From Devosia faecipullorum (GTDB lineage: Bacteria > Pseudomonadota > Alphaproteobacteria > Rhizobiales > Devosiaceae): a DNA stretch of 64,000 nucleotides. Below the pieces are notes generated by a model. The model had not been told where the DNA came from. It saw only the letters and a program-made list of their open reading frames with translations, and did no database searches. Below are positions 47,477 through 62,166 of this stretch, piece by piece. The stretch's first letter is position 1, and every line of letters starts with the position of its first letter. The DNA lies in assembly GCF_015158295.1 (NCBI RefSeq), contig NZ_JACDXV010000001.1:682001-746000 (forward strand), read 5' to 3'. The position numbers were made by a program, and so were the translations under genes.

Positions 47477-47496
47477 TTCGGCATAGTCCGATGCAT
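47477..47496 (+). repeat. Six-fold phage motif, site 1
   Basis: TTCGGCATAGTCCGATGCAT, intergenic, 94 nt before the GTG start at 47590. Confidence 0.75.
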
Positions 47497-47589
47497 GGCC
47501 ACCCCCCAGTCTCCCCATGCTGTCCAAGGGGCAGCGGTCGCGATTGCGACCTGATAGGCGCCCGCGGGCGTCGCTTCAGGAGGCCCGCC

Positions 47590-47820
47590 GTGAAGGTCGA
47601 ATTCCGCATCAAGAAAATCGAGCGCTATATCGTCACCCGCTTTGAGCAGGGCTTTGCCACGGATGGTGAGGCCGTGGTGGCAACGTTCGGGACTTATGAC
47701 AATGCCGATCAAGCCCACCACGTGGCCATGGCCTTGGCCAGAGATCAGGCCAATCGCCTCGGTATACCGCTCAATCATCCGTCCATCGTGTACCCCAGAA
47801 AGCCATCTAATCGGGCCTGA
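47590..47820 (+). CDS. Small phage protein, GTG start
   Basis: A 76-aa protein, VKVEFRIKKIERYIVTRFEQ, then GFATDGEAVVATFGTYDNAD and HHVAMALARDQANRLGI. The GTG at 47590 has a perfect AGGAGG 7 nt upstream and marks where protein-like sequence begins. It looks like a small alpha/beta domain; no family recognised. It is flanked by sites 1 and 2 of the six-fold motif. Confidence 0.65.
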   Translation: MKVEFRIKKIERYIVTRFEQGFATDGEAVVATFGTYDNADQAHHVAMALARDQANRLGIPLNHPSIVYPRKPSNRA

Positions 47821-47825
47821 TGCAG

Positions 47826-47845
47826 ATCGGCATAGTTCGATGCAA
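47826..47845 (+). repeat. Six-fold phage motif, site 2
   Basis: ATCGGCATAGTTCGATGCAA, 6 nt after the stop of the 76-aa gene. Confidence 0.75.
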
Positions 47846-47914
47846 ACGCCCCTGTCATTCTCACCCTGCCCTCCCGGTGTTGGGCCTGCTGTTGGACCGA
47901 GAGATCCATGAACC

Positions 47915-48030
47915 CAGCGGGTCCTCCCCCGGGGGGTGGGTAGCCCGGCAGGTTTCCCGACCCCGGGGGTCCGGTAGCTACAGGGATTTTTTTTGGGTTC
48001 GCACCCCTCCTGTGGTTCGCACCCACGGGA
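47915..48030. other. Candidate cos region
   Basis: Very GC-rich stretch before the terminase genes. It contains the self-complementary CCCCCGGGGG (centre about 47,934), the dyad GACCCC-G-GGGTC-like arms near 47,970, a T8 run, and two 11-nt direct repeats GGTTCGCACCC at 47,996 and 48,014 (18 nt apart). Lambda-type cos sites combine a nicking dyad with repeated small-terminase binding sites just upstream of terminase. The exact cut cannot be read. Confidence 0.4.
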
Positions 48031-48037
48031 GTGCAAG

Positions 48038-48262
48038 ATGACCAGACGAAACCAAAATCCAATCGTCGTTTTCTCCAACAACGTCACAGAAATCTTTCCA
48101 GGTGAAACCGTCATCCTCGTCGCGGACTCCAACGGACACGGGGGTGTCTGGCTAAAAACAGCCGTTGGCAACTCACTAGATGAAGCCCTCGCCGAGCTCC
48201 GCGAGCTGAACGAGTTCATCGCCGAAAATCCCCCCGCGAACCCCGCGCACCATTCGTCGTGA
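48038..48262 (+). CDS. Small phage protein of unknown function
   Basis: A 74-aa protein, MTRRNQNPIVVFSNNVTEIF, then PGETVILVADSNGHGGVW and LDEALAELRELNEFI: a small beta-beta-alpha domain by pattern. GGGAG lies 7 nt upstream. It precedes the ParB-like gene by 10 nt. Confidence 0.6.
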   Translation: MTRRNQNPIVVFSNNVTEIFPGETVILVADSNGHGGVWLKTAVGNSLDEALAELRELNEFIAENPPANPAHHSS

Positions 48263-48272
48263 GGTACGCACT

Positions 48273-49010
48273 ATGCGAACCCCTGACGATTTCATGCGTC
48301 ATCAGACGCTAGAGCGCGTACCCGTCGCCGATCTGCACGGATACGATCGTAATGCGCGCACTCACAGCGCCGCGCAGGTCGCGCAGATCGTCGCGTCCAT
48401 CCGCGCCTTCGGCTTCACCAATCCGCTGCTGATCGACGAATCCAACATGATCGTCGCCGGTCATGGCCGCTTCGCCGCGGCGCGAGAGCTGGGCTTCGAC
48501 GAGGTGCCATGCATACGGCTGCGCGGCCTGTCGCCGGAAAAAGTCCGCGCCCTCATTCTGGCCGACAACCAGCTGGCATTGAACGCCGGCTGGGACGAGA
48601 AGATGTTGGCCGAGGAGATCGCCGCCATTGATTTCTCGATCGGCGAGCTGGAGCTGGACTTTGACATCGGCGTCCTCGGCTTCTCCGAACTGCAGCGCGG
48701 GGAGCTCGCGCAGCTGCTCGTCGAGGCAGAGCCCGAAGACGCGCCGGCGACCATTGAGATGGAAGCCGAACCAGCCGTCGCCAAGACCGGCGAGACCTGG
48801 TGCCTCGGCCCGCACCGCCTCACTGTCGGCGGCAGCCAGGCTGCGCGCGATGTCGATGCGCTCATCCTCGCTTGGCAGCGAGACCATAAGGGCGAAGACG
48901 CCCGGCTGTCCAACAGCTCCGAGACCTTCAATGCCCGGGCGCAGGCCTTGGGCATTGAGTTCGTGCGACCGAAAGCCAAGAGCCAGAAGGCGCGTAGGAA
49001 GGCCGGCTGA
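48273..49010 (+). CDS. ParB-like nuclease-domain protein; remnant of a ParB-methyltransferase fusion
   Basis: A 245-aa protein. Residues 15-110 form a ParB/sulfiredoxin-like domain (VPVADLHGYDRNARTHSAAQ, NPLLIDESNMIVAGHGRFAA). Next comes GETWCLGPHRLTVGG, the conserved lead-in to the phage ParB-DNA methyltransferase family. The methyltransferase core (SAM site, DPPY) is absent, and the sequence goes straight to ARDVDALILAWQRDHKGEDA, the tail normally found after the methylase. This looks like an in-frame internal deletion. The DNA-binding part probably survives as a packaging or partition-type helper. Its stop overlaps the small terminase start. Confidence 0.75.
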   Translation: MRTPDDFMRHQTLERVPVADLHGYDRNARTHSAAQVAQIVASIRAFGFTNPLLIDESNMIVAGHGRFAAARELGFDEVPCIRLRGLSPEKVRALILADNQLALNAGWDEKMLAEEIAAIDFSIGELELDFDIGVLGFSELQRGELAQLLVEAEPEDAPATIEMEAEPAVAKTGETWCLGPHRLTVGGSQAARDVDALILAWQRDHKGEDARLSNSSETFNARAQALGIEFVRPKAKSQKARRKAG

Positions 49011-49618
49011 TGGGTCTCTCGCGCCGCGCCTATGCCGACCATCGCAAGCGGCTTGGACTGTCAGGCACGTCGGAGGCGGCCGTCCGGAAGGCGCTGCTCG
49101 CCGGTCGCATCACCGCGCTCGCCGATGGCACCATCGATGCTGCTGCCGCCGATCGCGACTGGGGTGGTTCGACGAGCGAGGCCAAGGTCAGGTCAGGCCG
49201 GCCCATCGAGGCAGACAGCTATCGGCTCGACGAGGACGATCAGGAACGTCCGATCATCATCGCCTCGCCCACGGCCGGGATGGATCAGAAGTCCGCGGCC
49301 ACCTTGAACCAAGTCAAGATCGCGCAGGAGAAGCTGAAGCTCGACGAGGCGCTCGACAAGCGCAAGCTTCGCAAGGGTGAGCTGATGCTCAGGCAGCCGG
49401 CTCGAAAATTCGTCTTCGCCCTCGGCAAGCTCTTCTCGACTGGCTTGCGCTCCCATCATTCGGTTGCTGGCGCTGCCTTGGCCGCGCGGTTCGGCATCCG
49501 CGAGCACGACATGATCCAAGCCTTGCGCGAGGAATATGCCCCCTTCTTGGAGGCCTTGTCGAAGGAGGACGACGACCTCGACCACGCCGCCGGCAAGGAC
49601 AAGGCCAATGCTGCATAA
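49010..49618 (+). CDS. Terminase small subunit
   Basis: A 202-aa protein with an N-terminal winged-helix-like DNA-binding segment (RRAYADHRKRLGLSGTSEAA then VRKALLAGRITALADGTID), a linker, and a helical C-terminus (LDEALDKRKLRKGELMLRQP; ARFGIREHDMIQALREEYAP). It would recognise the packaging site and recruit the large subunit. Position directly before the large subunit and overlap on both sides support the call. Confidence 0.78.
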   Translation: MGLSRRAYADHRKRLGLSGTSEAAVRKALLAGRITALADGTIDAAAADRDWGGSTSEAKVRSGRPIEADSYRLDEDDQERPIIIASPTAGMDQKSAATLNQVKIAQEKLKLDEALDKRKLRKGELMLRQPARKFVFALGKLFSTGLRSHHSVAGAALAARFGIREHDMIQALREEYAPFLEALSKEDDDLDHAAGKDKANAA

Positions 49619-51848
49619 CCTCTACGTGGACATGATGGGCGAGATCGAACCGTTCGACGGTCTCGAGGACCTGCTGTCGAATTTCATGAAGGGCTTGGCC
49701 CCGCCACCAGATCTGACGGTCTCGCAGTGGGCGGACAGCTCCCGCATCCTCGACAAGCCCTTCACTAAGAACCGCATGAGGTGGCGCACTGACTATGTGC
49801 CCTACACGCGCGAGATCATGGATTGCCTGTCGCCATCGTCGCCTGTGAAGCGCGTGGCATGGCTCAAGTCGGCACAGGTGGCCGGGTCCGAAACGGGCAA
49901 CAACTGGCTGGGCTACACCATCGCCCACCATCCCGGCCTGCTCATGCTTGTCAACCCGACCAAGTCGATGGTCAAGCGCATGTCGCACCGCGTGCAGGCA
50001 CTCATCGATTCCAGCGATGGCCTCAGCGACCTGGTGCTTCCGGCCCGCGTGCGGGACAGCAAGAACACCCGGGAGATGAAGCAATTCCCCGGCGGCATGA
50101 TCCTGTTCGTCGGTGCCAATAGCGGCCCCGATCTGCGATCGTATGCCTGCCCGTTCCTGTTCTTCGACGAAGTGGACGGCATGCCCAACGACGTCGACAA
50201 CGAGGGACACCCCGTCGCCGTCGCCGAGGCCCGAACCTTCGGTCAGGGCGAGGAATACAAGATCTACCTGAACAGCACCCCCAAGATCGAGCAGACCAGC
50301 CAGATCTGGAAGGAGTGGCTCCGCGGGGACCAGCGGCTCTACATGATGCGCTGCCCCCATTCCGACCTGTTGATCGACTGGCAGTTCAAGCACCTGCAGC
50401 TCGAGGAGATCGGTCGACCCGACAGCGTCTTCTACCAATGTCCATGCGGATGCGGGAAACGGATCGTCGAAGGGCTGAGCAAGACCGCTATGCTGCGCGA
50501 CGGCCTCTGGGTGCCCAAGATAATCCGCACCGACGAGGACATGTTCGATCGGCTCAATGTCGATGGCGACATGTATGAGCTGAAGCAGTTCAACGCGCAG
50601 TCGCTCGAGCGCAGCTACGCCATCAATGCCCTGTATTCGCCGATCGGCATGATGTCGTGGAAACGCATCATGGAGCAATGGGAGCAGGCGCAGGGCGTCT
50701 ATCCCTTGCTGAAGGCCTTCCGCAACACCGTCGAGGGCTTGCCGTGGAAAGAGATCGGCGACGCCCCGGACGCCGAGGTAATCTGGAATCGCCGGTCTCG
50801 CGTCAACAGAATGCGGGTGGTGCCGTCCGAGGTGGTGATGCTGACGGCCGGCGCCGACATCGGGCAGGACCATATCGAAATCTCGGTCTATGGCTGGGGC
50901 CGTCGCCGGCAGCGCTGGCTGATCGAGCACATCCGCATCGATGGTGCCTACAACGACAAGAAGACTTGGGACCGGCTGACCGACATCCTCGAGCGCCGCT
51001 ATCAGCATGCCAGCGGTGCCATCATGGCGATCCGTCGCCTTTGCATCGACCGCGGCAAGTGGACAGATACCGTCGACGGCTGGGTGAATACCCAGAACGA
51101 GCGTCGCGTCACGGCCATCAAGGGCTATGACAAGCTGGAGGCCCCATTCCGCTGGGCTGGCCAGAAGAAGCAGCACGCGGACGGCACCCAGTCCCAGCGC
51201 AAATATTCCATCAAGTGGGCCATGGTCGGCGTGAGCTATTTGAAGCTCGAGCTGCTCGGCAATCTCAATCTCGCCCGCGAGGACGAGGACACCTTCCCGC
51301 CGGGCTGGCTGCACCTCCCAGAGGATGTCACCCTCGACTGGATCAAGCAGCTGACAGGCGAACGTCGGGTCTACACCACCGAGAAGAAGACCGGCGTGGT
51401 GAAGGCGTACTGGGAGAAGATCTCCGACCGTGTGGAGGCTCTCGACTGCACGAACTATGCGCGCGCTGCGGCGGCTATGGAAGGCTGGGACGACTGGACC
51501 GACGTGGAGTTCCAGCGTGAGGAGCAACACCTGCGCGAGGCAGCCGAGGACCGGCGCATCAAGCTCTATGAGTATCAGCAGAGGAATGGCGGCATGGGCA
51601 CGATCTACGACGTGGTACCGGGGCTGGTGCTGCCGATCGAGGCACCCGATTTCAGCAAGCCCGATGCCGGTGCCATGGCACTGAACGCGCCGGCCCCTGC
51701 CCCTGCAGCGCCACCGCAGCCGTTAGTCAACGCGCCTGACAAACCCATGGTCACTACCCCCGCTCCCGAGATCGGCATTGTCGGATGCAAGCCGGCGATG
51801 AAATCCATACCGATGCCGAACTTCGGCTCGGATGAGGATGATGACTGA
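49608..51848 (+). CDS. Terminase large subunit, GpA family
   Basis: ATP-driven DNA packaging motor and headful/cos nuclease, 746 aa. The ATPase domain has the GpA-type Walker A variant KSAQVAGSETGNNW and Walker B FLFFDEVDGMP; a Cys motif CPCGCG is in mid-protein. The nuclease domain shows TAGADIGQDHIEISVYGWG and LCIDRGKWTDTV with acidic residues. The last 70 residues form a Pro/Ala-rich tail that includes PEIGIVGCKPAMK, the translation of motif site 3. The start at 49608 overlaps the small subunit stop. Confidence 0.92.
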   Translation: MLHNLYVDMMGEIEPFDGLEDLLSNFMKGLAPPPDLTVSQWADSSRILDKPFTKNRMRWRTDYVPYTREIMDCLSPSSPVKRVAWLKSAQVAGSETGNNWLGYTIAHHPGLLMLVNPTKSMVKRMSHRVQALIDSSDGLSDLVLPARVRDSKNTREMKQFPGGMILFVGANSGPDLRSYACPFLFFDEVDGMPNDVDNEGHPVAVAEARTFGQGEEYKIYLNSTPKIEQTSQIWKEWLRGDQRLYMMRCPHSDLLIDWQFKHLQLEEIGRPDSVFYQCPCGCGKRIVEGLSKTAMLRDGLWVPKIIRTDEDMFDRLNVDGDMYELKQFNAQSLERSYAINALYSPIGMMSWKRIMEQWEQAQGVYPLLKAFRNTVEGLPWKEIGDAPDAEVIWNRRSRVNRMRVVPSEVVMLTAGADIGQDHIEISVYGWGRRRQRWLIEHIRIDGAYNDKKTWDRLTDILERRYQHASGAIMAIRRLCIDRGKWTDTVDGWVNTQNERRVTAIKGYDKLEAPFRWAGQKKQHADGTQSQRKYSIKWAMVGVSYLKLELLGNLNLAREDEDTFPPGWLHLPEDVTLDWIKQLTGERRVYTTEKKTGVVKAYWEKISDRVEALDCTNYARAAAAMEGWDDWTDVEFQREEQHLREAAEDRRIKLYEYQQRNGGMGTIYDVVPGLVLPIEAPDFSKPDAGAMALNAPAPAPAAPPQPLVNAPDKPMVTTPAPEIGIVGCKPAMKSIPMPNFGSDEDDD
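51771..51790 (+). repeat. Six-fold phage motif, site 3
   Basis: ATCGGCATTGTCGGATGCAA, inside the terminase tail (read as IGIVGC), 51 nt before the gpW start. Identical over 20 nt to site 5. Confidence 0.8.
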
Positions 51849-52071
51849 TCTCGCAACGCTGAAATCGCGACTGGCCGAGGCCGAGGCGCAATACCACCAG
51901 GTGAGCCTCAAGGGGTCCATCACGCAGACGGCGTTCTCGCTCGGGGGTCAGAACGCGGTGCAGCGCGCTGCCGTCGATCCGGTCAAGCTGCAGGCATACA
52001 TCCAAGATCTCAAGATGCAGATCGCCCGCCAAGAAGGCGGTGCCGGTCGTATGCGGCAGGTGACGTGGTAA
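51841..52071 (+). CDS. gpW-like head-tail joining protein
   Basis: A 76-aa protein, MTDLATLKSRLAEAEAQYHQ, then VDPVKLQAYIQDLKMQIARQ: two helices around a short hairpin, as in lambda gpW, which plugs the portal and connects the tail. The ATG overlaps the terminase stop; two earlier in-frame ATGs (51832, 51838) exist. It ends in TAATG, coupling it to the portal gene. Confidence 0.82.
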   Translation: MTDLATLKSRLAEAEAQYHQVSLKGSITQTAFSLGGQNAVQRAAVDPVKLQAYIQDLKMQIARQEGGAGRMRQVTW

Positions 52072-53642
52072 TGGCAGACAACCTCCCGATGATCCTCGAC
52101 GCCCGCGGCAACCCCATCCAGCGTCATGCCGGGTTCGGTGGCGACAGCCAGTACGATGCCGCCAGCTTCAAGGGCGAGCTCAAGAACTGGTCGCCGTTCC
52201 CCGGGTCGGCTGACACCGACATCCTGCCCGAGCTCGGCGATATCATCAGCCGCGCCCGCGATGCCGACCGTAACCAGCCGGTTGCGAAAGCCACGATCAG
52301 CACGATGGTGCAGCAGGTCGTCGGCGATGGCCTGCGCGTGGTGCCCACGCCGAATTATCGCGCGCTCGGCAAGACCAAGGAATGGGCCGACGATTGGGCG
52401 CAGGCCGTCCAGTCCGAGGCTGATGCATATTTCGGTTCGACGGACTGCGATCTCGCCGGGATCGAGGATTTCTCCAGCATGACGGCGCTGGTGTTCCAGT
52501 CCACGCTGATGAATGGCGGCACCCTCGCCCTGCCCCATTGGCGCGCCCGATCGGCCCCGCACCGCATGACCGAGTATCGGACCGCGTTCCGGCTCGTCGA
52601 GATCGATCGGCTCGAGAACCCGAACGGCATGATGGACACCGAATTCCAGCGTGGCGGCATCGACTTCGACGAAGATGGGGAGCCGATCGGCTACAACATC
52701 CTGCGCCATCACCCTGGCGATGCCATCATGGGATTCACGCGCGAATGGGACCACGTGCCGGCATGGACGGAATGGGGTCGGCAGCGCGTCGTTCACGTGT
52801 TCTCGCGCGATCGCATCGATCAGCACCGCGGCGTCCCCGTCCTCGCCACGGTCTTGCCCGATCTTAAGGTCGCCGACGACTACAAATCCGCTGAGCTGCA
52901 TGCCGCGGTGGCCAACGCCTTGGTGGCGCTGGTGGCCGAATCCCCCATGGGGCCGGAATTCATCCGCGACCTGTTTGGTGATGCCGAGACTTACTTGCAG
53001 ATGCGCGCCAAGAATTCCCCAAAATTCAAGTCGGGCATGATGGCGGCGCTGTTCCCGGGCGACAAGCTCGCCGGGTTCACCCCTGCCCGCCCGAACGCCA
53101 ACTACGGCGGCTTCATGGAATCGGTGCTGCGCCCGGTGTCGGCGGCGTCGGGCATGCCGCTCGAGCTGGTGATGAGGAACTTCACCACCATGAATTACAG
53201 CTCCCTCAGAGGCATGATGGTCGAGGTCAAGCGCGCCGCGTCGACGATGCGGTCGTGGCTCACCCGCCGGTGGTGCAACCCTGCCTATGCCCTCTGGTTC
53301 GAAGAGGCGGTCGACCGCGGGCGCGTCCCCGACTGCACCCTCGACGACCTCTATGAGAACTGGAGCGCGTGGACCAAGAGCCGCTGGCTCGGTTCGGGAT
53401 CAGGCTGGGTAGACCCCAACAAGGAGGCCGACGCGGCGCACTACCGCGTCGCCTACGGCCTTGGAACGCTCGAGTCGGAATGCGCCGATCAGGGCGAGAA
53501 CTGGCGCGACATCGCCGACCAGCAGGCCACCGAGCGCAAGTACTACGCCTCGCGCGGCATGGCCTATCCCGGCGACGCCAATGTCGGCAAGCCCGCCCCT
53601 GCCCTGAAGCAGGCAGACGAGGAGAAGACCAATGCCCGGTAA
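52071..53642 (+). CDS. Portal protein, lambda gpB family
   Basis: A 523-aa protein forming the twelve-fold DNA entry ring at one capsid vertex. Family blocks: RARDADRNQPVAKATISTMV, ADDWAQAVQSEADAYFGSTD, FRLVEIDRLENPNGMMDTEF, HVFSRDRIDQHRGVPVLATV, ASGMPLELVMRNFTTMNYSS and MMVEVKRAASTMRSWLTRRW. The start at 52071 shares bases with the gpW stop; AGGTG is upstream. The last 11 nt overlap the protease gene. Confidence 0.92.
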   Translation: MADNLPMILDARGNPIQRHAGFGGDSQYDAASFKGELKNWSPFPGSADTDILPELGDIISRARDADRNQPVAKATISTMVQQVVGDGLRVVPTPNYRALGKTKEWADDWAQAVQSEADAYFGSTDCDLAGIEDFSSMTALVFQSTLMNGGTLALPHWRARSAPHRMTEYRTAFRLVEIDRLENPNGMMDTEFQRGGIDFDEDGEPIGYNILRHHPGDAIMGFTREWDHVPAWTEWGRQRVVHVFSRDRIDQHRGVPVLATVLPDLKVADDYKSAELHAAVANALVALVAESPMGPEFIRDLFGDAETYLQMRAKNSPKFKSGMMAALFPGDKLAGFTPARPNANYGGFMESVLRPVSAASGMPLELVMRNFTTMNYSSLRGMMVEVKRAASTMRSWLTRRWCNPAYALWFEEAVDRGRVPDCTLDDLYENWSAWTKSRWLGSGSGWVDPNKEADAAHYRVAYGLGTLESECADQGENWRDIADQQATERKYYASRGMAYPGDANVGKPAPALKQADEEKTNAR

Positions 53643-54498
53643 GCGCATCCCCCGCCGTACGCTGTCGGCGATTCAGGAAACCCGCTGGGCAATGACGCCC
53701 GATCAGCTCGAGACCATGATCGCCATCGCCAATCGCGAGGACCTCGGCGCGCTGGCAGCCAGCCGACCCGAATACCTGCAGGACGACGACGCCGATGCCG
53801 TCCTCAAGGTCTACAACGAGGGCCGCACCGCGGTCATCGAGGTCGTCGGTGCCTGCTTCCGCTATGCGAACCTGTTCACGGAATTCTGCGGCGGTGCCGT
53901 CTATGAGGACCTCGCCCTGCAGCTGGCGGTCGCCGAGGAGACCCAGCAGATCGAGAACGCCGTGCTGCTGCTCGACACGCCCGGCGGCATGGTGACAGGC
54001 TGCGCCGAGTGGGTCGGCATGATCGAGAAGTTCAGCAAGCCCATCGTCGCTTATGTCGATGGCGATGCCTGCAGTGCCGGATACTGGATGGGCGCGGCAT
54101 GCGACTACATCGTCGCCAGCAGGACCTCTCAGCTCGGCTGCCTCGGCGTCGTGGCGGTCTACACGGACAACAAGAAGCAGCTCGAGATGGAAGGGCTGCG
54201 CGAATACGAACTGGTGTCGACGCTAACACCGAACAAGCGTCCGGACGTGACAAGCAGCGATGGCCGCGCCGAGATCATGCGCTCGATCGACGACACCGCC
54301 GAGATCTTCCTCGGTGACGTCGCCCGCTTCCGCGGCTTCAAGGGCGGTGCCAAGGGCGTGGCCAAGGCCACCAATGGTGGCGGCATTTATGTCGGCCAGA
54401 AGGCCGTCGACATCGGCCTTGCCGACGAGATCGGCACTTTCGCCGACGTCATCGAGACCCTCGCACCGGCCAAGAAGAGCCTTTCTCGCGCTGTCTGA
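53632..54498 (+). CDS. S49-family capsid maturation protease
   Basis: A ClpP-fold serine protease of 288 aa that processes scaffold and head proteins. LLLDTPGGMVTG and the catalytic Ser in DACSAGYWMGAACD are visible, followed by LGCLGVVAVYTDNKKQLEME and the Lys-containing GGGIYVGQKAVDIGLADEIG. Unlike many relatives, it ends right after the protease domain; the scaffold part is a separate gene at 54588. GGAG precedes the start. Confidence 0.88.
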   Translation: MPGKRIPRRTLSAIQETRWAMTPDQLETMIAIANREDLGALAASRPEYLQDDDADAVLKVYNEGRTAVIEVVGACFRYANLFTEFCGGAVYEDLALQLAVAEETQQIENAVLLLDTPGGMVTGCAEWVGMIEKFSKPIVAYVDGDACSAGYWMGAACDYIVASRTSQLGCLGVVAVYTDNKKQLEMEGLREYELVSTLTPNKRPDVTSSDGRAEIMRSIDDTAEIFLGDVARFRGFKGGAKGVAKATNGGGIYVGQKAVDIGLADEIGTFADVIETLAPAKKSLSRAV

Positions 54499-54510: not shown

Positions 54511-54530
54511 TTCGGCATTGTTGGATGCAA
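54511..54530 (+). repeat. Six-fold phage motif, site 4
   Basis: TTCGGCATTGTTGGATGCAA, intergenic, 13 nt after the protease stop and 58 nt before the scaffold start. Confidence 0.78.
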
Positions 54531-54587
54531 GGACGCCCCTGATCCTCCCGTAAATCCTGAACTTTTCACGGATCACGGGAAACAGAC

Positions 54588-55367
54588 ATGCCGCGTCTCA
54601 AGAGACTGAATCACTCGCTGCTCCGCAGCGTCTCCCGCGCCGCCCTTGGCGCCGATGCACCCGCCGACGACCCGAACGCCGAGGACGAGGACATCGACGG
54701 CGAAGAGGAGGATACCCCTCCTGCAGGTCGTCGCGGACGCAAGTCTAAGAAGGCCGGCAAGCGTTCGCGCCGTTCTCAGGAAGACGAGAACGCCGAGGAC
54801 GACGAAACCGCTGAGGATGAGGAAGCCGAGGACGAGGAGGCCGATGAGGACCCCGACGCCGAGGACGATCTCGATCCGGATGCGGAGGACGAGGACGAGG
54901 ACCTCGACGGCGAGGACGATGAATCGGCTGAGGACGAAGATCCTGATGCCGAGGACGAAGAAGCCGAGGATGAGGACATGGAGGACGAAGATCCCCCGGC
55001 CTCGCGTCGCGGCAAGAAGTCCCGCAAGTCCAAGGCCACCGGTCGCACCTCACGCACCGCAGGTCGTCGCACCAGCCGCACGGCAGGTGGTGGCGAACGC
55101 GCTCGCATCGCCGCGATCACCCGCAGCAAGCTCGCCGCGGGCCGTGAGGGCCTTGCCGAGTACCTGGCGTTCGACACGGGTCTCAGCACCCGCACTGCGC
55201 TGGGCATCCTGAAGCACTCGCCGAAGGCCCGCACCACCACCAGCCTGCGCTCGCGCATGGCTTCCGTCGACAACCCCCGCACCAAGGCCGGCAGCGGTCG
55301 CACCGTCAATGACGACGACAGGATCGTCGCTTCGGCGGTCAAGACTGTCCAGTCCTTCGGCTTCTAA
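54588..55367 (+). CDS. Acidic-repeat scaffold-like head protein
   Basis: A 259-aa protein. Residues 22-140 are almost entirely Asp/Glu/Ala (units like EDEEAEDEEADEDPDAEDD), interrupted by a basic patch RRGRKSKKAGKRSRR. Next is a Lys/Arg/Thr-rich stretch (SRRGKKSRKSKATGRTSRTA), then a C-terminal helix-rich end ERARIAAITRSKLAAGREGL with AEYLAFDTGLSTRTALGIL. That end matches the C-terminal part that S49 capsid proteases of this type usually carry as a fused scaffold. It is probably the separate scaffold, removed by the protease before packaging. Confidence 0.7.
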   Translation: MPRLKRLNHSLLRSVSRAALGADAPADDPNAEDEDIDGEEEDTPPAGRRGRKSKKAGKRSRRSQEDENAEDDETAEDEEAEDEEADEDPDAEDDLDPDAEDEDEDLDGEDDESAEDEDPDAEDEEAEDEDMEDEDPPASRRGKKSRKSKATGRTSRTAGRRTSRTAGGGERARIAAITRSKLAAGREGLAEYLAFDTGLSTRTALGILKHSPKARTTTSLRSRMASVDNPRTKAGSGRTVNDDDRIVASAVKTVQSFGF

Positions 55368-55378
55368 GGAGACCAGCC

Positions 55379-55789
55379 ATGGCTGAGTACGAACCCACTT
55401 ACGGCGCTTCGCCGAGCTACTCGTCCTACGAAACCTCGTACGACGAGATCGACACCGGGCAGATCCCTCTGATCTCCGAGCCGATCACGATCCTCGCCGG
55501 TGCCGGAAAGCTCCCTCGCGGCGCGGTGCTGGGCAAGGTCACGCTGACCGGCAAGTACGTGCTTTCGAAAGCGTCAGTCGGCGGTGTCGCTGTCGCAGAC
55601 GGCTCTCAAGTGCCAGCAGTTGTGCTCGCGCACGGTGTCGATGCCTCCGGCGCAGCTGACATCAAGAGCGCTGGATACGTGCACGGCCAGTTTATCTGGC
55701 AGGGCCTGACGGTCGGCGAAGGGCATGACTTCGACACGCTCAAAGCCGCCTGGGCTGGCACCACTCGATTCCTCGTCAAGGCCGCTTAA
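55379..55789 (+). CDS. Head decoration protein (lambda gpD-like)
   Basis: A 136-aa trimeric capsid-cementing protein by family: a Tyr/Ser-rich flexible N-terminus (TYGASPSYSSYETSYDEIDT), then IPLISEPITILAGAGKLPRG then AVLGKVTLTGKY, and a C-terminal GQFIWQGLTVGEGHDFDTLK. AAGGAG lies 7 nt before the start. It lies immediately before the major capsid gene, as in lambda. Confidence 0.85.
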   Translation: MAEYEPTYGASPSYSSYETSYDEIDTGQIPLISEPITILAGAGKLPRGAVLGKVTLTGKYVLSKASVGGVAVADGSQVPAVVLAHGVDASGAADIKSAGYVHGQFIWQGLTVGEGHDFDTLKAAWAGTTRFLVKAA

Positions 55790-55815
55790 CCGCGGCCTTC
55801 GGCTTCCCTTCGACG

Positions 55816-55830
55816 GCGGGGCTGCCCCGC
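55816..55830 (+). other. Stem-loop before the major capsid gene
   Basis: GCGGGG-CTG-CCCCGC, 22 nt before the capsid ATG. No T-run; more likely an mRNA-processing or stability hairpin than a terminator. Confidence 0.5.
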
Positions 55831-55851
55831 TAAGCAAACTGGAGATGCTCC

Positions 55852-56892
55852 ATGAACCGCCTTTATACGACTACCGCGCTGCTGGGCGTTCTCCGCTCGC
55901 TTCTGCAGCCCCAGTCGTTCCTGATCGACCGGTACTTCACCGGCATCGTCGAGAGCGACAAGGAAGAAATCGCCTTCGACATCGAGCTGCACGACGAGCA
56001 GCTTGCCCCCTTCGTGGCTCCCACGGTCGAGGGCAAGATCGTCCGTGAGCTCGGCTTCAAGACCGACGTCTTCACCCCTGCTTACATCAAGCAGAAGACC
56101 CCGCTGGCTCCCTACAAGTCCATCAAGCGCACGATCGGCGAGCGCATTGGTGGTGGCGAGATCACCGCGCAGCAGCGTCAGGAGATCCGCGTCGCCTACA
56201 CCCTGACCCGCCATCAGCAGCGCATCACCCGCCGGCTTGAGGCCATGGGTTCCGAAGCCCTGCGCGAAGGCCAGGTGACCGTCGCCGGCGAGGACTACGA
56301 AACCAAGGTCGTCAACTTCGGCCGCGATCCGTCTCTCCGCATCACCCTTGCCGGCGCTCAGCGCTGGGATCAGGCCGATGCCGATCCGATCAAGGATCTC
56401 GAGGATTGGGCGCAGCGCGTGTTCGACGTCTCCGGTGCCGTTGTCACCGAGGTCGTGTTCGGAGCCAAGGCGTGGAACGCCTTCCGCAACAACGACAAGG
56501 TGAAGGCGCTGCTGGACATCCGTCGCGCTGATGGTGCCGGCCCGATCAATATCGGCCCTGCCACCGCCACCCCGACCGGTGCTCAGTTCGTCGGCTCCTT
56601 GGGCGGCTTCATGCTGTTCAAGTATGCCGGCAGCTACAAGGACGCCGCTGGCCAGCGCCATCGCTTCGTGCCGGACAACGGCGTCATGGGCGTCGACCCC
56701 CAGAACTATCAGGGCGTCCGCTACTTTGGCGCCATCATGGACGAAGAGGCCGGCCTCAAGCCATGGGCCTTCTTCCCGAAGAGCTGGCTCCAGCCGGATC
56801 CCTCGGTTCGCATGATGATGACCCAGTGCGCCCCGCTGCTGGTGCCGGGTCGGAAGGACGCGAACTACTACGCCGAGGTCCTGACCCTCTAA
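55852..56892 (+). CDS. Major capsid protein, lambda gpE family
   Basis: A 346-aa HK97-fold shell protein. Family blocks: MNRLYTTTALLGVLRSLLQP, FLIDRYFTGIVESDKEEIAF, LAPFVAPTVEGKIVRELGFK, YIKQKTPLAPYKSIKRTIGE, QRQEIRVAYTLTRHQQRITR (the coiled gpE region), and C-terminal GVRYFGAIMDEEAGLKPWAF. GGAG precedes the start. Hairpins on both sides may protect this mRNA segment. Confidence 0.93.
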   Translation: MNRLYTTTALLGVLRSLLQPQSFLIDRYFTGIVESDKEEIAFDIELHDEQLAPFVAPTVEGKIVRELGFKTDVFTPAYIKQKTPLAPYKSIKRTIGERIGGGEITAQQRQEIRVAYTLTRHQQRITRRLEAMGSEALREGQVTVAGEDYETKVVNFGRDPSLRITLAGAQRWDQADADPIKDLEDWAQRVFDVSGAVVTEVVFGAKAWNAFRNNDKVKALLDIRRADGAGPINIGPATATPTGAQFVGSLGGFMLFKYAGSYKDAAGQRHRFVPDNGVMGVDPQNYQGVRYFGAIMDEEAGLKPWAFFPKSWLQPDPSVRMMMTQCAPLLVPGRKDANYYAEVLTL

Positions 56893-56910
56893 GGCCAGAA
56901 CGACGCCAAC

Positions 56911-56942
56911 GCCCCGCGCCCACCAGCGCGGGGCTTAGCCCC
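56911..56942 (+). other. Alternative hairpins after the major capsid gene
   Basis: GCCCCGCGC-CCACCA-GCGCGGGGC forms a 9-bp stem; its right-hand GGGGC can instead pair with the next GCCCC (GGGGC-TTA-GCCCC). Mutually exclusive stems 24 nt before the next start resemble an attenuator. No T-run. Confidence 0.5.
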
Positions 56943-56965
56943 TGAGAAACCCGGGAGATTCCGTC

Positions 56966-57532
56966 ATGTCGAACCAGTCCAGAGCCGAGCGTCGCGCCGC
57001 TGCAATCGCAGCCCAGAAGGCCAAGCAGGACGCCGCCACATCCGCATTGCAGACCACCACCGCATCGGCAACGCCACCGGCCAACGATCCGGCTCCTGCT
57101 CCGCAGACCGATCCCGCCACCAATTCCGCGCCGGCGAACGACGCTGCAAACGCTCCGCAAACCGGTAGCGAAACGGTGACCAATTCGACGGAGCCGACCA
57201 CTGCCGAACCCAGCAATTCTGGGGCGTCAGGCAATTCGACTGACACCAAGACCGACGACAAGGACGGCGCGAAAAACGCTGGTGGAAATGATGGCGCGAA
57301 CGCCACCACGACCGACAGCGAAACCGCTGGCCAGAACGATGGTCAGGACGGCGGCAATGACGGCAACGATGATGGTGCCGATACCGTCGTCGAGGACGGC
57401 GACACGATCGACATTGTGACCGTCCACGCTCTCAAGTTCACTGCCGACTACACCGAGCCGGGCACGCCGATGACGCTCGGGCGAGAGATGGCCCTGCAGC
57501 TGCTCGCCTCCGGCGCCGTGAAGAGGGCCTGA
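56966..57532 (+). CDS. Disordered head protein with small C-terminal domain
   Basis: A 188-aa protein. Basic N-terminus (MSNQSRAERRAAAIAAQKAK), then about 110 residues of Thr/Asn/Asp/Gly/Ala low complexity, then VVEDGDTIDIVTVHALKFTA and MTLGREMALQLLASGAVKRA. The position after the capsid matches lambda gpFI, a disordered packaging helper; similarity is by position and composition only. Confidence 0.6.
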   Translation: MSNQSRAERRAAAIAAQKAKQDAATSALQTTTASATPPANDPAPAPQTDPATNSAPANDAANAPQTGSETVTNSTEPTTAEPSNSGASGNSTDTKTDDKDGAKNAGGNDGANATTTDSETAGQNDGQDGGNDGNDDGADTVVEDGDTIDIVTVHALKFTADYTEPGTPMTLGREMALQLLASGAVKRA

Positions 57533-57535
57533 TCG

Positions 57536-57910
57536 ATGTCGGGCGGCTTGAAGACCCCATGGACCCGGCCATTCGGCGATCCTGAAGCGCTGCCGATCAT
57601 GTCTGCGCGCGTCGCAGACATTGTGCGCGTCCCGGACGCCGACGTGGCTGCGGACAGGTGGGAATTCGAGCTGCCGTCCGGCACCCTGGCGTTCGAGCTC
57701 ACGGCATTGAACGCCGGCGATGATACGGCCCGCATCACATACTGGGCCGGTCCTGACCTGCACAGCGCGATCGGCGGCATTATCCGGCCCGTGCCCGCGG
57801 GCGGCGCGCTTGTCGAATTCCGGCACGCGATCGCCGGCGACATCGTGGTCGTCGAAGATGGCGGCAACGACGCCCTCGAGGTCGTCGTCCACGCTCATAT
57901 CGGGGGCTGA
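57536..57910 (+). CDS. Possible capsid fibre base protein
   Basis: A 124-aa beta-rich protein with VRVPDADVAADRWEFELPSG, then TLAFELTALNAGDDTARITY and HAIAGDIVVVEDGGNDALEV. It begins 3 nt after the previous stop and ends 2 nt before the next gene. Together with the two following genes it forms an extra module between capsid and head-tail genes, typical of capsid fibres or spikes. No known family. Confidence 0.5.
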   Translation: MSGGLKTPWTRPFGDPEALPIMSARVADIVRVPDADVAADRWEFELPSGTLAFELTALNAGDDTARITYWAGPDLHSAIGGIIRPVPAGGALVEFRHAIAGDIVVVEDGGNDALEVVVHAHIGG

Positions 57911-57912
57911 CG

Positions 57913-58122
57913 ATGCTTGGACCCAAGATCATCGGCCAATCCGGCGGCAAGGCCCAGCAAATCACCGTGGAGGTGATCGACGAGATCACCGGTGAAGTCA
58001 CGAAGCGCACGCTCGACGTGGTGCTCACCGAGCTGGAGACGATCGGTGGCCCCCTGCTCGGACGCGCCATCGACGGGCCGACCAGCGCCCTGAACACACC
58101 AATCGATTCCCCGGAGAACTGA
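57913..58122 (+). CDS. 69-aa protein of the capsid fibre module
   Basis: MLGPKIIGQSGGKAQQITVE, then VIDEITGEVTKRTLDVVLTE and LLGRAIDGPTSALNTPID. It may be a trimerisation or linker element for the following fibre gene. GGGG precedes the start; 1 nt separates it from the next ATG. Confidence 0.5.
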   Translation: MLGPKIIGQSGGKAQQITVEVIDEITGEVTKRTLDVVLTELETIGGPLLGRAIDGPTSALNTPIDSPEN

Positions 58123-58123
58123 C

Positions 58124-59434
58124 ATGCAGACGATCAACAAAGGGGACGGAACCGGCACTGGCGACAGCGTCAAGCAAGCGCTGGCGAAGACCGCCGACAA
58201 TTTCGCGGAAGTGTCCGACCGCTTGGACGACATCGAGGCCCGTGGCTTTCCCCGCAAGCTCAGAGGATGGGCCGGTCCCGTGCCGGGCTTTCCGCAGCCA
58301 CCCAGTGCCAAAGGCAGCGCATGGACCGGAGCGACGAGGAAAGGTTCGCATCAGTTCGCTGCTGGCTCCCTGACAAACGCTTGTCTTCTGCACATGCCGA
58401 GCGGCAAGCTCCTCGCGCTCGGGATACTGTCCAGCGCGCTCTACGCGCAGATCTACACTGTCGAAGCCAATGGTGCTTTGACTGCCCTTGGCGGCGTTGT
58501 GCAGCTCCAGAGCGGCGTAGCGACTGGCCAGATTCAAGCGATGTCGATTGGGCCTGATCTCGCCGTTCTGCTGACCTCGTCGTCGTCCAACGGTTCCGGC
58601 GCCCGCCGCATTGTGCTCGATTTCAGCACCGGGGCGATCGTCGTCTCGAGCGACACCGCACTGCCGAGCAATAGATTCACGACGGCATTCGCCTCATACA
58701 ATGTTCGCGGCCTCCGGTCATCGAACGCGGTGTTCGGCATGATGACAGAATACGCCTCGTCGAACGGCTATCCCGTAGGCGCTATGACGCGACAAATGTC
58801 AGCCCTGTCCGCTGACAACTACTGCCGGGATCTTAGCTTGAGCTGGATGTCGAACAGCGGCCAGTACGCGTACACCACTCATGACAACTTGGGAACCGAT
58901 AGCGCCGTCGTTGTGACCACGCGCTCGAATTTCGACGGCAATCTCTCGGCCATGGCGCTGCTGGTCGCTGTCAATGATGACGGCGCAAATGTCATCGACC
59001 GCATCGCGCTTGGTTCTGGTGCCACGCCGAATCCATCCGTTATCGCGTTGTCGCCAAGCCGAGCACTTGTCCGTCCTTCAGTAGCTGCGGGCGCCTTCAC
59101 GCTCGATGTCGTCGACGGCGAGCTGCAGTTGCTCACTACCGACGTCCAGACGTCAGGCGTACTGGGCAGGCTCTGGCGAGCCGTATGTGCTCAGGACAGC
59201 AATCGGGCCGTTGTGTTCGAGCAGTATCAGGACGCCACCGTGCCAACGATCCTGCAGATCGACGAAGCGACTGGCGCAATCACGGAAGCCGGCACGATCC
59301 CGCTTGTTTTCGGCACCTCTGGAAGTGCCCTGCCGCACGACGCACTCAAGATCGGACCGGACCGCATCGCCATCATCGGTCGCCACGCCAGCGCCTCGCC
59401 CCAGTGTCTCGTCGAAGTCTGGGATCTGACCTGA
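58124..59434 (+). CDS. Probable capsid-fibre protein with beta-propeller-like body
   Basis: A 436-aa protein. The N-terminus MQTINKGDGTGTGDSVKQAL then AKTADNFAEVSDRLDDIEAR matches phage fibre/spike attachment segments. The rest has repeated strands with hydrophobic-Gly-Ser patterns (LLHMPSGKLLALGILSSALY, AMSIGPDLAVLLTSSSSNGS, IALGSGATPNPSVIALSPSR, DALKIGPDRIAIIGRHAS), about every 45-60 residues, suggesting a beta-propeller. GGAG precedes the start. It is surface-exposed by inference, perhaps host- or matrix-binding. Confidence 0.55.
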   Translation: MQTINKGDGTGTGDSVKQALAKTADNFAEVSDRLDDIEARGFPRKLRGWAGPVPGFPQPPSAKGSAWTGATRKGSHQFAAGSLTNACLLHMPSGKLLALGILSSALYAQIYTVEANGALTALGGVVQLQSGVATGQIQAMSIGPDLAVLLTSSSSNGSGARRIVLDFSTGAIVVSSDTALPSNRFTTAFASYNVRGLRSSNAVFGMMTEYASSNGYPVGAMTRQMSALSADNYCRDLSLSWMSNSGQYAYTTHDNLGTDSAVVVTTRSNFDGNLSAMALLVAVNDDGANVIDRIALGSGATPNPSVIALSPSRALVRPSVAAGAFTLDVVDGELQLLTTDVQTSGVLGRLWRAVCAQDSNRAVVFEQYQDATVPTILQIDEATGAITEAGTIPLVFGTSGSALPHDALKIGPDRIAIIGRHASASPQCLVEVWDLT

Positions 59435-59452
59435 CCTGCACACGACCTGCTG

Positions 59453-59472
59453 GTGACCTGCTGGCAGGTCAC
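59453..59472 (+). other. Perfect hairpin after the fibre-like gene
   Basis: GTGACCTG-CTGG-CAGGTCAC, 8-bp arms, 18 nt after the stop. GACCTGCTGG is also directly repeated just upstream. No T-run. Confidence 0.5.
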
Positions 59473-59519
59473 AAACCGCCAGCATCCAGAATTCGCTATC
59501 AAATTCCGAGGGTTACCGA

Positions 59520-59852
59520 ATGGACTGGGAAGCCGAAATCGCAGGACCCGCTCTCGAAGAAGACGGCGTGCCGGCACGGTACCGCAGCGCCGTCGATGGC
59601 GAGCCCGATGGCGTGATTGATCGCGAGCTGACCGTCCTCTTCCACGAAGGCTATGTCGAGAAGGTGGTCCAAGGCGCAGCGGTCGCCGGCGATGAGGTGG
59701 CTGCGCTCGCACCCAGATCGGCATTGTCGGATGCAAAGACCGGCGGCCTACTCACGGTCGACGGCAGGGTTTTTGTCGTCCGGTCGAAGCCCGAAAACGA
59801 CGGCCGTGTGTGGATCAAGCTGAAGCTGGAGTTCGTCGACGTTGCTGGCTGA
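59520..59852 (+). CDS. Head-tail joining protein (gpFII/Gifsy-2-like)
   Basis: A 110-aa protein that would cap the head-proximal connector. Typical ending: GGLLTVDGRVFVVRSKPEND, then GRVWIKLKLEFVD, the beta-barrel core of lambda gpFII relatives. GAGGG lies 6 nt before the ATG. Motif site 5 is embedded in its coding sequence (read SALSDAK). Confidence 0.72.
   Translation: MDWEAEIAGPALEEDGVPARYRSAVDGEPDGVIDRELTVLFHEGYVEKVVQGAAVAGDEVAALAPRSALSDAKTGGLLTVDGRVFVVRSKPENDGRVWIKLKLEFVDVAG
59718..59737 (+). repeat. Six-fold phage motif, site 5
   Basis: ATCGGCATTGTCGGATGCAA inside the joining gene, in a reading frame different from that at site 3; 105 nt before the next start. Confidence 0.8.
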
Positions 59853-60348
59853 TATCGAAATCGGAACAGACGATCTGGTGACCGTGGCTGTGGCCGCGGC
59901 TCGAGATCTGCTGTCCGGCATCGAGATCGACGGCAAACCCATCCCCGTCAGGATGGGTCAGGTCTATCCCGAGGCTGTCGAGGATCTGCCGGTGCTGCAG
60001 GTGTTCTCGACGTCCGAGGGCTACCAGTACGGCGCCGGTCGGGTCGGTCATCGCATGGTCCGCATCGACGCCACGATCACCGTCGCTTTGCTCTTCGCGC
60101 TGCCGATCATCAAGCTCGAAGAGCTCGATCGCAAGATAGGTCGCGTCCGCGGCCAGATCAAAGCCCGCATCGCCGCCGATCCGCACCTCAAGATCGACGG
60201 CAAGGTCTGGGCAACCGACCTCGAGATCCAGTCCATCCAGAAGGGCTTGGCCGGTGCCGGCAAGGCCACGCTGGCGATCAATCAGCTGCAGCTCGGCTGC
60301 AGCATCACCCATCGCGAGGGATCCCTGATCCCCGCTCACTACAACTAA
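59842..60348 (+). CDS. Tail terminator-like protein, TTG start
   Basis: A 168-aa protein, LLADIEIGTDDLVTVAVAAA onward, with PEAVEDLPVLQVFSTSEGYQ and a C-terminal alpha/beta domain (IKARIAADPHLKIDGKVWAT). Position between the joining and tube genes matches the gpU/gpZ slot. The TTG start is supported by GGAG 9 nt upstream and by overlap with the joining gene. Confidence 0.65.
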   Translation: MLADIEIGTDDLVTVAVAAARDLLSGIEIDGKPIPVRMGQVYPEAVEDLPVLQVFSTSEGYQYGAGRVGHRMVRIDATITVALLFALPIIKLEELDRKIGRVRGQIKARIAADPHLKIDGKVWATDLEIQSIQKGLAGAGKATLAINQLQLGCSITHREGSLIPAHYN

Positions 60349-60358
60349 GGAGGCTCTC

Positions 60359-61150
60359 ATGCCCGCTATCGCCGATTATGGGGATCTGAGCCCCGGTCTG
60401 TACCAGATCCAGAACTGCGAGATCCTCGCCCGCAAGCCGGGAGAGGAGCATTTCGTGCAGTTCGCCGAGTGCAACACTGCTCGCATCAACATCACGGGCA
60501 CGTCGATCAAGCGGAAGGCCAAGAACAAGCGCACCCGCTATGTCGTGGTCGAGCACAATATCGACACCGAGGCCACCCTCGATCTCGAGGCCATGACCTT
60601 CACCCGTATCGTCAACGAGCTGCGCCTGCAGGGCGATGGCGAGGACCTCGTCCAGGCTGCTGGCGCGTGGACCTTCAACATCAAGCACGCCCAGATCGGT
60701 GGCATCTACAACGTCGGCAAGCACAACATCGCCGCGATCGTCACCGGGACCGAGAACGTCTACGACGAGAACACCGACACCTACACACCCGGTGCCGCGC
60801 TCGCTGGCCTTCAGTACAAGGTCGTCGACGAGGCCGATGGCAACGTGCAGCTGCTGGGTGGCTTCGCCAATGGCGATTGCATCCAGATCGCCGGCAACGC
60901 CACCGAGATCACCGCCGCCGAGGCCCTGCTGGGCGTCGACTTCGGATCGAACCTCAATCAGGAGCTGGAGCTTCGCGTCCGCGGCCTGTCCGAGATCGGC
61001 ACCCCGTTCGTGTTCTACGACCTGTTCTGGAAGGGCAAGCCGAACGGCATGGACCTGATCGGCGGCGACGACTACTCGGCCCAGAACTTCACCGGCACCC
61101 TGACGGGTCGCAATGGCCGCATCGGACGCTGGCAGCAGCTGAGCGTCTGA
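60359..61150 (+). CDS. Major tail tube protein
   Basis: A 263-aa tail tube protein of the gpV-like group. Blocks: LSPGLYQIQNCEILARKPGE, FAECNTARINITGTSIKRKA, DTEATLDLEAMTFTRIVNEL, ENVYDENTDTYTPGAALAGL, PNGMDLIGGDDYSAQNFTGT. AAGGAGG before the ATG is among the strongest ribosome sites in the window, fitting a high-copy structural protein. Confidence 0.88.
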   Translation: MPAIADYGDLSPGLYQIQNCEILARKPGEEHFVQFAECNTARINITGTSIKRKAKNKRTRYVVVEHNIDTEATLDLEAMTFTRIVNELRLQGDGEDLVQAAGAWTFNIKHAQIGGIYNVGKHNIAAIVTGTENVYDENTDTYTPGAALAGLQYKVVDEADGNVQLLGGFANGDCIQIAGNATEITAAEALLGVDFGSNLNQELELRVRGLSEIGTPFVFYDLFWKGKPNGMDLIGGDDYSAQNFTGTLTGRNGRIGRWQQLSV

Positions 61151-61156
61151 TCATAG

Positions 61157-61176
61157 GCGGGGGCAGCCGCCCCCGC
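61157..61176 (+). other. Hairpin after the tail tube gene
   Basis: GCGGGGGC-AGCC-GCCCCCGC, 8-bp arms, 6 nt after the stop. Probably attenuates transcription or protects the tube mRNA, so that the chaperones are made in smaller amounts. Confidence 0.55.
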
Positions 61177-61198
61177 TCTCATTCCCCGGGAGAACATC

Positions 61199-61816
61199 AT
61201 GAGCCGTTTTGAGAAGGCCGTTCCGACCGCCACGTTCGAGGTCGCCGGCGTCGCCTACCCCAACCGCAAGATGGGCCACGTCGCCATCTTCGACACCGTG
61301 TGCCAGTACGATGGCGTCGGCCCATTCATCGAGGAGTTCCTCGACGGCCTGATCGACATGAACGACGTCCGCAAGTGGATCGCCGGTCGTGTCGCCAAGG
61401 GCGAGACCGAGCTGACCAAGGACGAGATCAAGATCGCCCAGGTGCTCGCCACCAAGGTGCTTGCTCGCATCGAAGCCATGGATCTCACGATCGGAGGCGT
61501 CGTCTGGACCATCATCTACAAGTTCCCCGGGCTGATCGCCGAGCTGCTGCTCCGCTGCGCGGTGTTGAACGAGGACGAGGGCGACACCGAGGACAAGTTC
61601 CTCGCATTCATCGACGCCCGCTCCCTGCCCGAGATGTTCGACCTGTGCCTGCAGTGGTACCGGTTCCAGCTGGAGGACGACCTGCGCCCTTTCGTGGAGA
61701 AGGCGAAGGCAAAGGCCGTCGCCGCAGCCGCTTCGGTGAAGGACGCGGCCAAGCCCGACAGCAAGCCGGCAAAGGCCCCAAGCAGGACGGCAAGCAAGAG
61801 ACGGGCCCGCGGCTGA
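61199..61816 (+). CDS. Tail assembly chaperone G
   Basis: A 205-aa helical protein, MSRFEKAVPTATFEVAGVAY onward, with ETELTKDEIKIAQVLATKVL and a Lys/Ala-rich end (KAKAKAVAAAASVKDAAKPD). In lambda-like phages the G product chaperones the tape measure. GGGAG precedes the start. A -1 frameshift extends it into the GT product. Confidence 0.8.
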   Translation: MSRFEKAVPTATFEVAGVAYPNRKMGHVAIFDTVCQYDGVGPFIEEFLDGLIDMNDVRKWIAGRVAKGETELTKDEIKIAQVLATKVLARIEAMDLTIGGVVWTIIYKFPGLIAELLLRCAVLNEDEGDTEDKFLAFIDARSLPEMFDLCLQWYRFQLEDDLRPFVEKAKAKAVAAAASVKDAAKPDSKPAKAPSRTASKRRARG

Positions 61817-62166
61817 AGCTGTTCGACAGCTGGAAGCTCATGGCCTTCGAGCTCATGACCGAGGGGGGGCTTCATCCAGATTGGGTGGCGAACCTGTCCC
61901 CGGGCGAGCTCAGGGCCAACTACAACGAGTTGGTGCGCCAGCGCGCCGCCCGCCAGAAAGAGCAGCTCCACATTCAGGTCTCGGCTGCTGCCGTCGTCGC
62001 GGACGGTGGCAAGATGGCGAAGGCGCAAGAAACGGCATTGTCCGATGCAGCCTCACGCACGACCGTTCGCTCCGAACCTGCGGGATCGGAGAGACCAAAG
62101 ACCTTGGATGAAGCCGCCAAGGTCCAACGCGACTTCGACGAGACCGCCCATCTCTGGAAGAGCTGA
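61199..62166 (+). CDS. Tail assembly chaperone GT (programmed -1 frameshift product)
   Basis: The -1 frame is open from upstream to 62166 and contains a conserved-looking T domain: LFDSWKLMAFELMTEGGLHP, then DWVANLSPGELRANYNELVR and QKEQLHIQVS. Candidate slip sites in the G frame are C-CCT-TTC at 61687-61693 (a textbook X-XXY-YYZ heptamer) and G-GCA-AAG at 61708-61714 and 61768-61774 (one base from lambda's GGGAAAG). The later site leaves the more natural fusion protein. Motif site 6 lies inside the T part (read TALSDAA). Confidence 0.75.
62031..62050 (+). repeat. Six-fold phage motif, site 6
   Basis: AACGGCATTGTCCGATGCAG inside the GT reading frame, 116 nt before the tape measure start. Confidence 0.75.

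Follow-up and report, generated by a model that had tools for sequence, protein, structure and literature searches.

Oriented repeats in the late region of a Devosia prophage as probable activator-dependent promoters

Introduction

In phages Mu and P2, several late promoters with non-consensus -10 and -35 boxes answer to a single phage activator (C in Mu, Ogr in P2), and the C gene of Mu lies just before the lysis promoter. Half-sites placed around a -35 box are known from lambda, where CII at P_RE recognises TTGC-N6-TTGC flanking the -35. The C site of the Mu promoter Pmom overlaps the -35, according to the part of the source cited here (PMC4461284), and the portion cited for YdaT of CP-933P gives an inverted repeat, TTGATT-N6-AATCAA (PMC9986795). 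A different use of repeated sites is made by the stoperators of L5, which are asymmetric and oriented, lie dispersed through the phage genome close to gene borders, and also act as promoter operators, as set out in the cited sections of PMC9283540. Here we describe a word, CGGCATWGTYSGATGCA, that recurs in the late region of a Devosia faecipullorum prophage, covered in part by a 64-kb window (G000:C1:682001-746000). We argue that it is probably the upstream part of a set of sigma70-type late promoters with a poor -10, which would need a phage activator over the -35.

Oriented, clustered late promoters that answer to one phage activator are of an already known kind. The resemblance to Mu and P2 lies in several late promoters per activator and in non-consensus boxes, and the placement of the Mu C gene resembles that of the gene for a 120-amino-acid (aa) protein here, our candidate activator. 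The differences are another site sequence, a copy number of eight as against four, the location of three sites inside genes, and a candidate without detected sequence relation to C or Ogr (no Pfam or PHROG match). As in CII and YdaT, the half-sites flank the -35 with six bases between them (here GCAT-N6-ATGC); however, CII and YdaT serve lysogeny at one or a few promoters, whereas the genes concerned here are late lytic ones and half-site homology is just 4 bp. L5 stoperators share the asymmetry and orientation but are, in the cited sections, 13-mers with more than 20 copies that include early operators, whereas here an 18-nucleotide (nt) word plus a -10-like box occurs in 8 copies, none of them early. 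In a limited literature search, we found no earlier description of this site set or its candidate activator and no study of late control for this temperate Devosia phage lineage; a search for the literal word gave nothing relevant among the results listed. The analysis provides a testable late-transcription map for the lineage and names a candidate activator. It also points to late promoters embedded in coding sequence and recognisable solely through the repetition of a word.

Results

Copies, orientation and placement of the word

The word occurs in six exact copies in the window, all on the plus strand (0 mismatches each), and these stay the only matches when up to 3 mismatches are allowed. 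At this tolerance, 100 shuffled windows gave a mean of 1.67 matches and one shuffle reached 6; the six real ones are all exact. We extended the scan to 116 kb (extended coordinates start at window position 1 and are continued past 64000) and to the whole 3.4-Mb genome, where the exact word has 7 forward matches, 0 reverse matches and 0 for the backwards-read pattern that served as control. All 7 are inside the prophage, which lies between tRNA-Lys copies and has a 31-bp direct repeat at 33698 and 83762, giving a length of about 50 kb. The eighth own copy has 2 mismatches. Freeing position 7 and allowing one mismatch added a single genome match, isolated on another contig, and a copy with 3 mismatches on the minus strand at extended 68615 (antisense to a plus-strand gene; position weight matrix [PWM] score 19.8) was left uncounted. 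The early region (33.7-47.4 kb) has no copy even at up to 3 mismatches. The own sites are as follows, with gene calls from a simple home-made gene finder:

Site 1, 47478..47512, + strand: word at 47478-47495 (first C 47479), -35 TAGTCC at 47484-47489, -10-like CAGTCT at 47507-47512, predicted start about 47519; flanked by genes 46833-47213 and 47590-47820 (+)
Site 2, 47827..47861, + strand: first C 47828, -35 TAGTTC at 47833-47838, -10-like CATTCT at 47856-47861, predicted start about 47868; begins 7 nt past the upstream gene
Site 3, 51772..51806, + strand: first C 51773, -35 TTGTCG at 51778-51783, -10-like AAATCC at 51801-51806 (without T34), predicted start about 51813; within the 3' end of the gene for the large terminase, 28 nt ahead of gene 51841
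Site 4, 54512..54546, + strand: first C 54513, -35 TTGTTG at 54518-54523, -10-like GATCCT at 54541-54546, predicted start about 54553; 35 nt ahead of gene 54588
Site 5, 59718..59752, + strand: first C 59719, -35 TTGTCG at 59724-59729, -10-like CCTACT at 59747-59752 (without A30), predicted start about 59759; within gene 59520-59852
Site 6, 62032..62066, + strand: first C 62033, -35 TTGTCC at 62038-62043, -10-like GACCGT at 62061-62066, predicted start about 62073; within a presumed frame-shifted T frame that precedes tape-measure gene 62166
Seventh exact copy, extended 74892 (G000:C1:756892), + strand: outside the window, between the 120-aa gene and a lysis-type gene; predicted start 74932
Eighth copy, 2 mismatches, extended 69973, minus strand: between a helicase-primase gene and a minus-strand late (minor tail) gene, which the copy directly precedes; predicted start 69949

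All eight own sites, the minus-strand copy included, point toward the gene that comes next on their own strand (47590, 48038, 51841, 54588, 59842, 62166 and 74947 on the plus strand, 69949 on the minus strand). Products assigned nearby are ParB-like, large terminase, portal, head protease, tape measure, minor tail and AAA proteins. Two copies, 69973 (minus) and 74892, stand at borders between non-structural and late genes, each on a single strand.

These results agree with much of an earlier, sequence-only reading of the window, which had reported a six-copy plus-strand motif and had not seen it by eye in the host half. A motif search over prophage, host genome and related phages showed no similar density in host DNA. 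As that reading also said, the third and fifth sites (51773 and 59719) share an identical stretch, here of at least 20 nt, three copies are intergenic (47479, 47828 and 54513), and three are within genes. The latter are read in different frames and code for different peptides: IGIVGC in the terminase tail (51773), SALSDA (59719) and TALSDA (62033).

A tail gene and a second frame that follows and overlaps it occupy 61199-62166. The second frame, in which site 6 lies, finishes at the start codon of the tape-measure gene, a layout like the lambda G/GT frameshift.

Sites in related prophages

Using matches to the helicase and to the 120-aa protein, we found seven more sites, one of them decayed, in prophages of four further Devosia genomes (G033, G040, G045 and G054):

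G033, C1:1367300, minus strand: before lysis
G033, 1372796, + strand: before the minor tail gene
G040, 1578540, + strand: before the minor tail gene
G040, 1578944, minus strand: after the 46833 homologue
G045, C9:666938, minus strand: after a 46833-like gene (30% identical)
G054, 2545744, + strand: before lysis
G054, 2520731, + strand, decayed: after the 46833 homologue

The place of site 1 is thus occupied also in G040, G045 and, in decayed form, G054, and all 7 sites are oriented like the homologous gene next to them. The G040 prophage has lost its head-tail genes. One PWM scan of the relatives had a valid reversed-sequence control.

Beyond these prophages, the word is rare. It is found exactly in 4 of 136 genomes of the family, one of which (G019) is outside the alignment of relatives. 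Exact matches among viral contigs amount to 30 stretches, and only IMGVR_UViG_2920538802_000001, which is this phage (helicase 100%), has a dispersed set, with 7 exact copies; another viral contig with two copies was judged unrelated, its context being repeated across other contigs. A 19-nt pattern brought up three further contigs, none with matches to own prophage proteins, and the helicase alignment gave one locus among genome contigs and one viral locus. A de novo repeat search in the relatives was uninformative, codon-biased repeat families being equally large in the reversed control (own prophage, 14 versus 15), so that diverged versions of the motif may have gone unnoticed in prophages more distant from this one.

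A -10-like box at fixed distance from the word

We aligned the 15 sites (8 own and 7 from relatives, the decayed one included) without gaps, numbering the C of CGGCAT as 1. Conservation extends past the word, at C22 (13/15), A30 (12/15), C33 (12/15), T34 (13/15) and A41 (9/15), and within it T6 and G8 are invariant (15/15 each) with T7 at 10/15. Taken by themselves, the own sites have A30 in 7 of 8 and T34 likewise in 7 of 8. When eight random windows were drawn 20,000 times from extended 44.6-83 kb (60 columns), one or more A or T columns at 7/8 appeared in 0.47% of draws (P=0.0047) and two or more in 0 of 20,000. The best three A/T columns of the six intact sites in relatives are T34 (6/6), A30 (5/6) and A41 (5/6), counts that are not independent because these sites are partly orthologous to the own ones.

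A30 and T34 fall into the register of a sigma70 promoter if TTG or TAG at 6-8 opens a -35 (6-11), followed by a 17-nt spacer (12-28) and a -10 at 29-34. The spacer is within the 16-18 nt of such promoters, the -35 reads TTGTYS, or in two own sites TAGTYC, and A30 and T34 coincide with the -11 A and the -7 T, the two most important bases of the -10 box. The rest of the -10 is poor compared with TATAAT (own boxes CAGTCT, CATTCT, AAATCC, GATCCT, CCTACT, GACCGT, GAGGCT and GACCCT), which argues for an activator. This poor core goes together with a conserved putative protein site at the -35, made of the blocks TCGGCAT (0-6) and GATGCA (12-17) that flank it, as GCAT-N6-ATGC, 10 bp centre to centre.

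Sigma70 promoters start transcription about 7 nt past the -10, and the A at position 41 in 9/15 sites is consistent with this. With a start predicted at position 41, the leaders to the next gene would be 0 to 170 nt long. In all three minor tail orthologues the ATG is at position 41, so that this start would be the A of the ATG and the mRNA leaderless. All three lysis copies have the GGAGG ribosome site past the predicted start, inside the mRNA, and CCTCC ahead of that start.

The late leader before site 1

Three features precede site 1:

P_late, 47380..47408, + strand: TTGTCG-17-TATATT, consensus-like, 9/12
Hairpin after P_late, 47442..47470, + strand: GAGGCCGC...GCGGCCTC, terminator-like judging from its counterparts in relatives
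126-aa Arg-rich protein, 46833..47213, + strand: in the Q position of lambda-like phages, candidate P_late regulator

P_late has the -35/spacer/-10 register of the repeated sites and the same position in relatives. The stem of the hairpin covaries in five prophages, with both sides changed at 6 of 11 pairs; several relatives have a T run after it, and the weak T run of the own copy explains why the terminator scan missed it. The protein family encoded at 46833-47213 is present in 16/136 family genomes and 15/382 order genomes, and the promoter pattern is found in 13 of the 34 loci of this family. At these loci, the columns that were not preset (TTG, TA and T were) are T9 10/13, T14 10/13, G15 9/13 and C16 13/13. 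P_late and the repeated promoters have TTGT-N4-TGC in common, which may reflect common descent or a common factor.

The region 46833-47510 thus has the layout of lambda P_R'/t_R': an Arg-rich gene, a CCCGTTACTCC element, a TTGT-N4-TGC promoter with TATATT and a covarying hairpin. This layout is common to many Devosiaceae prophages that lack the repeated word, several of them with true T-run terminators, and its DNA has no match in phage or plasmid collections. The likeness to lambda P_R'-t_R' and Q extends to a late promoter, short leader and hairpin just after the gene in the Q position, with site 1 right behind; it differs in that no fold match was found for the 126-aa protein and that the leader is also found in prophages lacking the word. 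This protein has no PHROG or Pfam match, and its model is good (pLDDT, a predicted local confidence score, 83), yet there is no PDB fold match at E 0.001.

Beside the leader, 45438-46205 encodes a 255-aa minus-strand protein retained in G054 and G040. It has no PHROG, Pfam or PDB match and by eye resembles a plasmid replication initiator.

Candidate activators

The 120-aa protein is our first candidate, put forward on account of its place and co-occurrence with the word:

120-aa protein gene, extended 74525-74887, + strand: directly upstream of the lysis copy at 74892

Its family has members in 6 of the 136 family genomes, and five of the six are the motif-bearing ones. Weak traces (29-38% over 42 residues) occur in the motif-free G062 and G051. 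In the order, 3 of 397 genomes have the family; the copies of G343 and G489 contain an internal stop, and the portion of G343 that was read has no motif. The viral collection holds one locus, which is this phage. In G033, where the motif is kept and the 120-aa protein present, there is no match for the own 38557, 39379, 42845, 43458, 45438 and 46833 products. A fold search with the 120-aa model came back empty at E 0.001. The 79-aa protein encoded at 77047 is a second, less specific candidate.

Discussion

The fixed distance of A30 and T34, the orientation of the sites and their places favour phage promoters, which the sequence-only reading had listed among its alternatives. We infer promoter activity, activator dependence and the identity of the activator from sequence. 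A dimeric phage activator would straddle the -35 at the TCGGCAT and GATGCA blocks and make up for the weak -10, with transcription beginning near position 41. The eight promoters would fire together, late in infection, and serve the late small, ParB-like/terminase, joining/portal, head, tail, tape-measure and lysis genes and, on the minus strand, the minor tail gene.

Several observations weigh against this proposal. The own head-tail genes have no relative in the motif-bearing prophages, save 48038 in G054 (30% over 57 residues), so that five own sites (47828-62033) lack an orthologous comparison. A PWM scan of the head-tail regions of G033 and G054 gave no strong copies (its control held true sequence and was left unused), which suggests that not every related phage needs such a promoter for its head genes; since this argues against the word being a late promoter in every phage of the lineage, we hold the promoter reading at probable. 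Two sites, both inside genes, lack one of the key bases (51773 is without T34, 59719 without A30), and the 4-bp dyad alone is not significant. P_late is modestly above shuffles, where such matches average 0.5 per shuffle. As to the candidate, the 120-aa family has a weak sixth member in G014 (33%, E 8e-4) with no motif beside it, the protein is partial in G040 and G045, it lacks a Pfam or PHROG match and its model is poor (pLDDT 55); its helix-turn-helix (HTH) reading was made by eye, and libraries and models do not confirm it.

The same promoters could instead be silenced in the lysogen by a phage repressor, the blocks around the -35 being its operator. Their overlap with the -35 and the several HTH-type early genes of the prophage would suit such a role, but we regard it as unlikely: -10 boxes of the type xAnnCT are so poor that the promoters should be weak unaided, the early region has no copy at up to 3 mismatches, and the G033 prophage has perfect sites without a match for the own 38557, 39379, 42845 and 43458 products. 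Repressor-bound stoperators that halt elongation in the lysogen, the closest parallel in the sequence-only reading, would likewise be asymmetric, multi-copy and oriented with transcription, as all eight own sites are and as L5 sites are in the cited sections of PMC9283540, and four own sites begin just 1-14 nt past a stop codon. Such sites have no need for an A-N3-T that resembles a -10 and stands at a constant 12 nt, and none is found at early promoters (33.7-47.4 kb, up to 3 mismatches); with an element that exceeds 18 nt, the parallel was not borne out and we give it little credence. Partition sites for the ParB-like protein, also suggested earlier, do not fit sites that are strictly oriented and non-palindromic, and the ParB-like gene (48273-49010) is unmatched in the regions of the four motif-bearing relatives.

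The very strong conservation over 18 nt would be expected if an alternative sigma factor or a single-subunit phage polymerase read the whole word. This is improbable, as neither gene type was recognised among the approximately 30 prophage proteins scanned and the register fits sigma70; moreover, a T7-like enzyme would have to start before the GAGG at 29-32 for the minor tail mRNA to include it. The consensus for sigma54 is GG-N10-GC, and a promoter of this type fits less well because the consensus of the sites has GG(2-3)-N11-GC(15-16). Conservation as RNA, in the form of a nut/put-like hairpin, a processing site or a translation control (GCAU-WGUYSG-AUGC or a hairpin at the ribosome site), would also explain the orientation with transcription, and CCUCC...GGAGG can pair ahead of three lysis genes. 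We consider it very unlikely, since the GCAU/AUGC stem is broken on one side in 3 of 14 intact sites and compensated in none, the seven own leaders folded into unlike structures, no Rfam match exists in the window, and CCTCC is accounted for as the -10 region. For the same reason, a masking of the ribosome site by CCUCC/GGAGG pairing was discarded, CCTCC being untranscribed under the promoter reading.

The TTGT-N4-TGC shared by the two late-promoter classes leaves room for a single regulator family, with the 126-aa protein as prototype, that would act as a Q-like antiterminator at P_late, where the -10 is good and a terminator would follow, and as an initiation activator at the eight repeated promoters, where the -10 is poor and a TCGGCA block is added; we hold this for a long shot.

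Other features of the prophage

Extended 69991-74184, next to the minus-strand site, encodes a 1397-aa protein with primase and DEAD-helicase traces (weak family matches only), with relatives in 17/136 family genomes. The early minus-strand proteins at 39379-40251, 42845-43357 and 43458-43907 have, by eye, two or three tandem HTH-like repeats; those at 39379-40251 and 42845-43357 have a match to PHROG 323, 'transcriptional regulator, D5-like'. At the right end, extended 77902-80094 holds a DNA cytosine methyltransferase-like gene and an adjoining gene that by eye look like a restriction-modification cargo pair.

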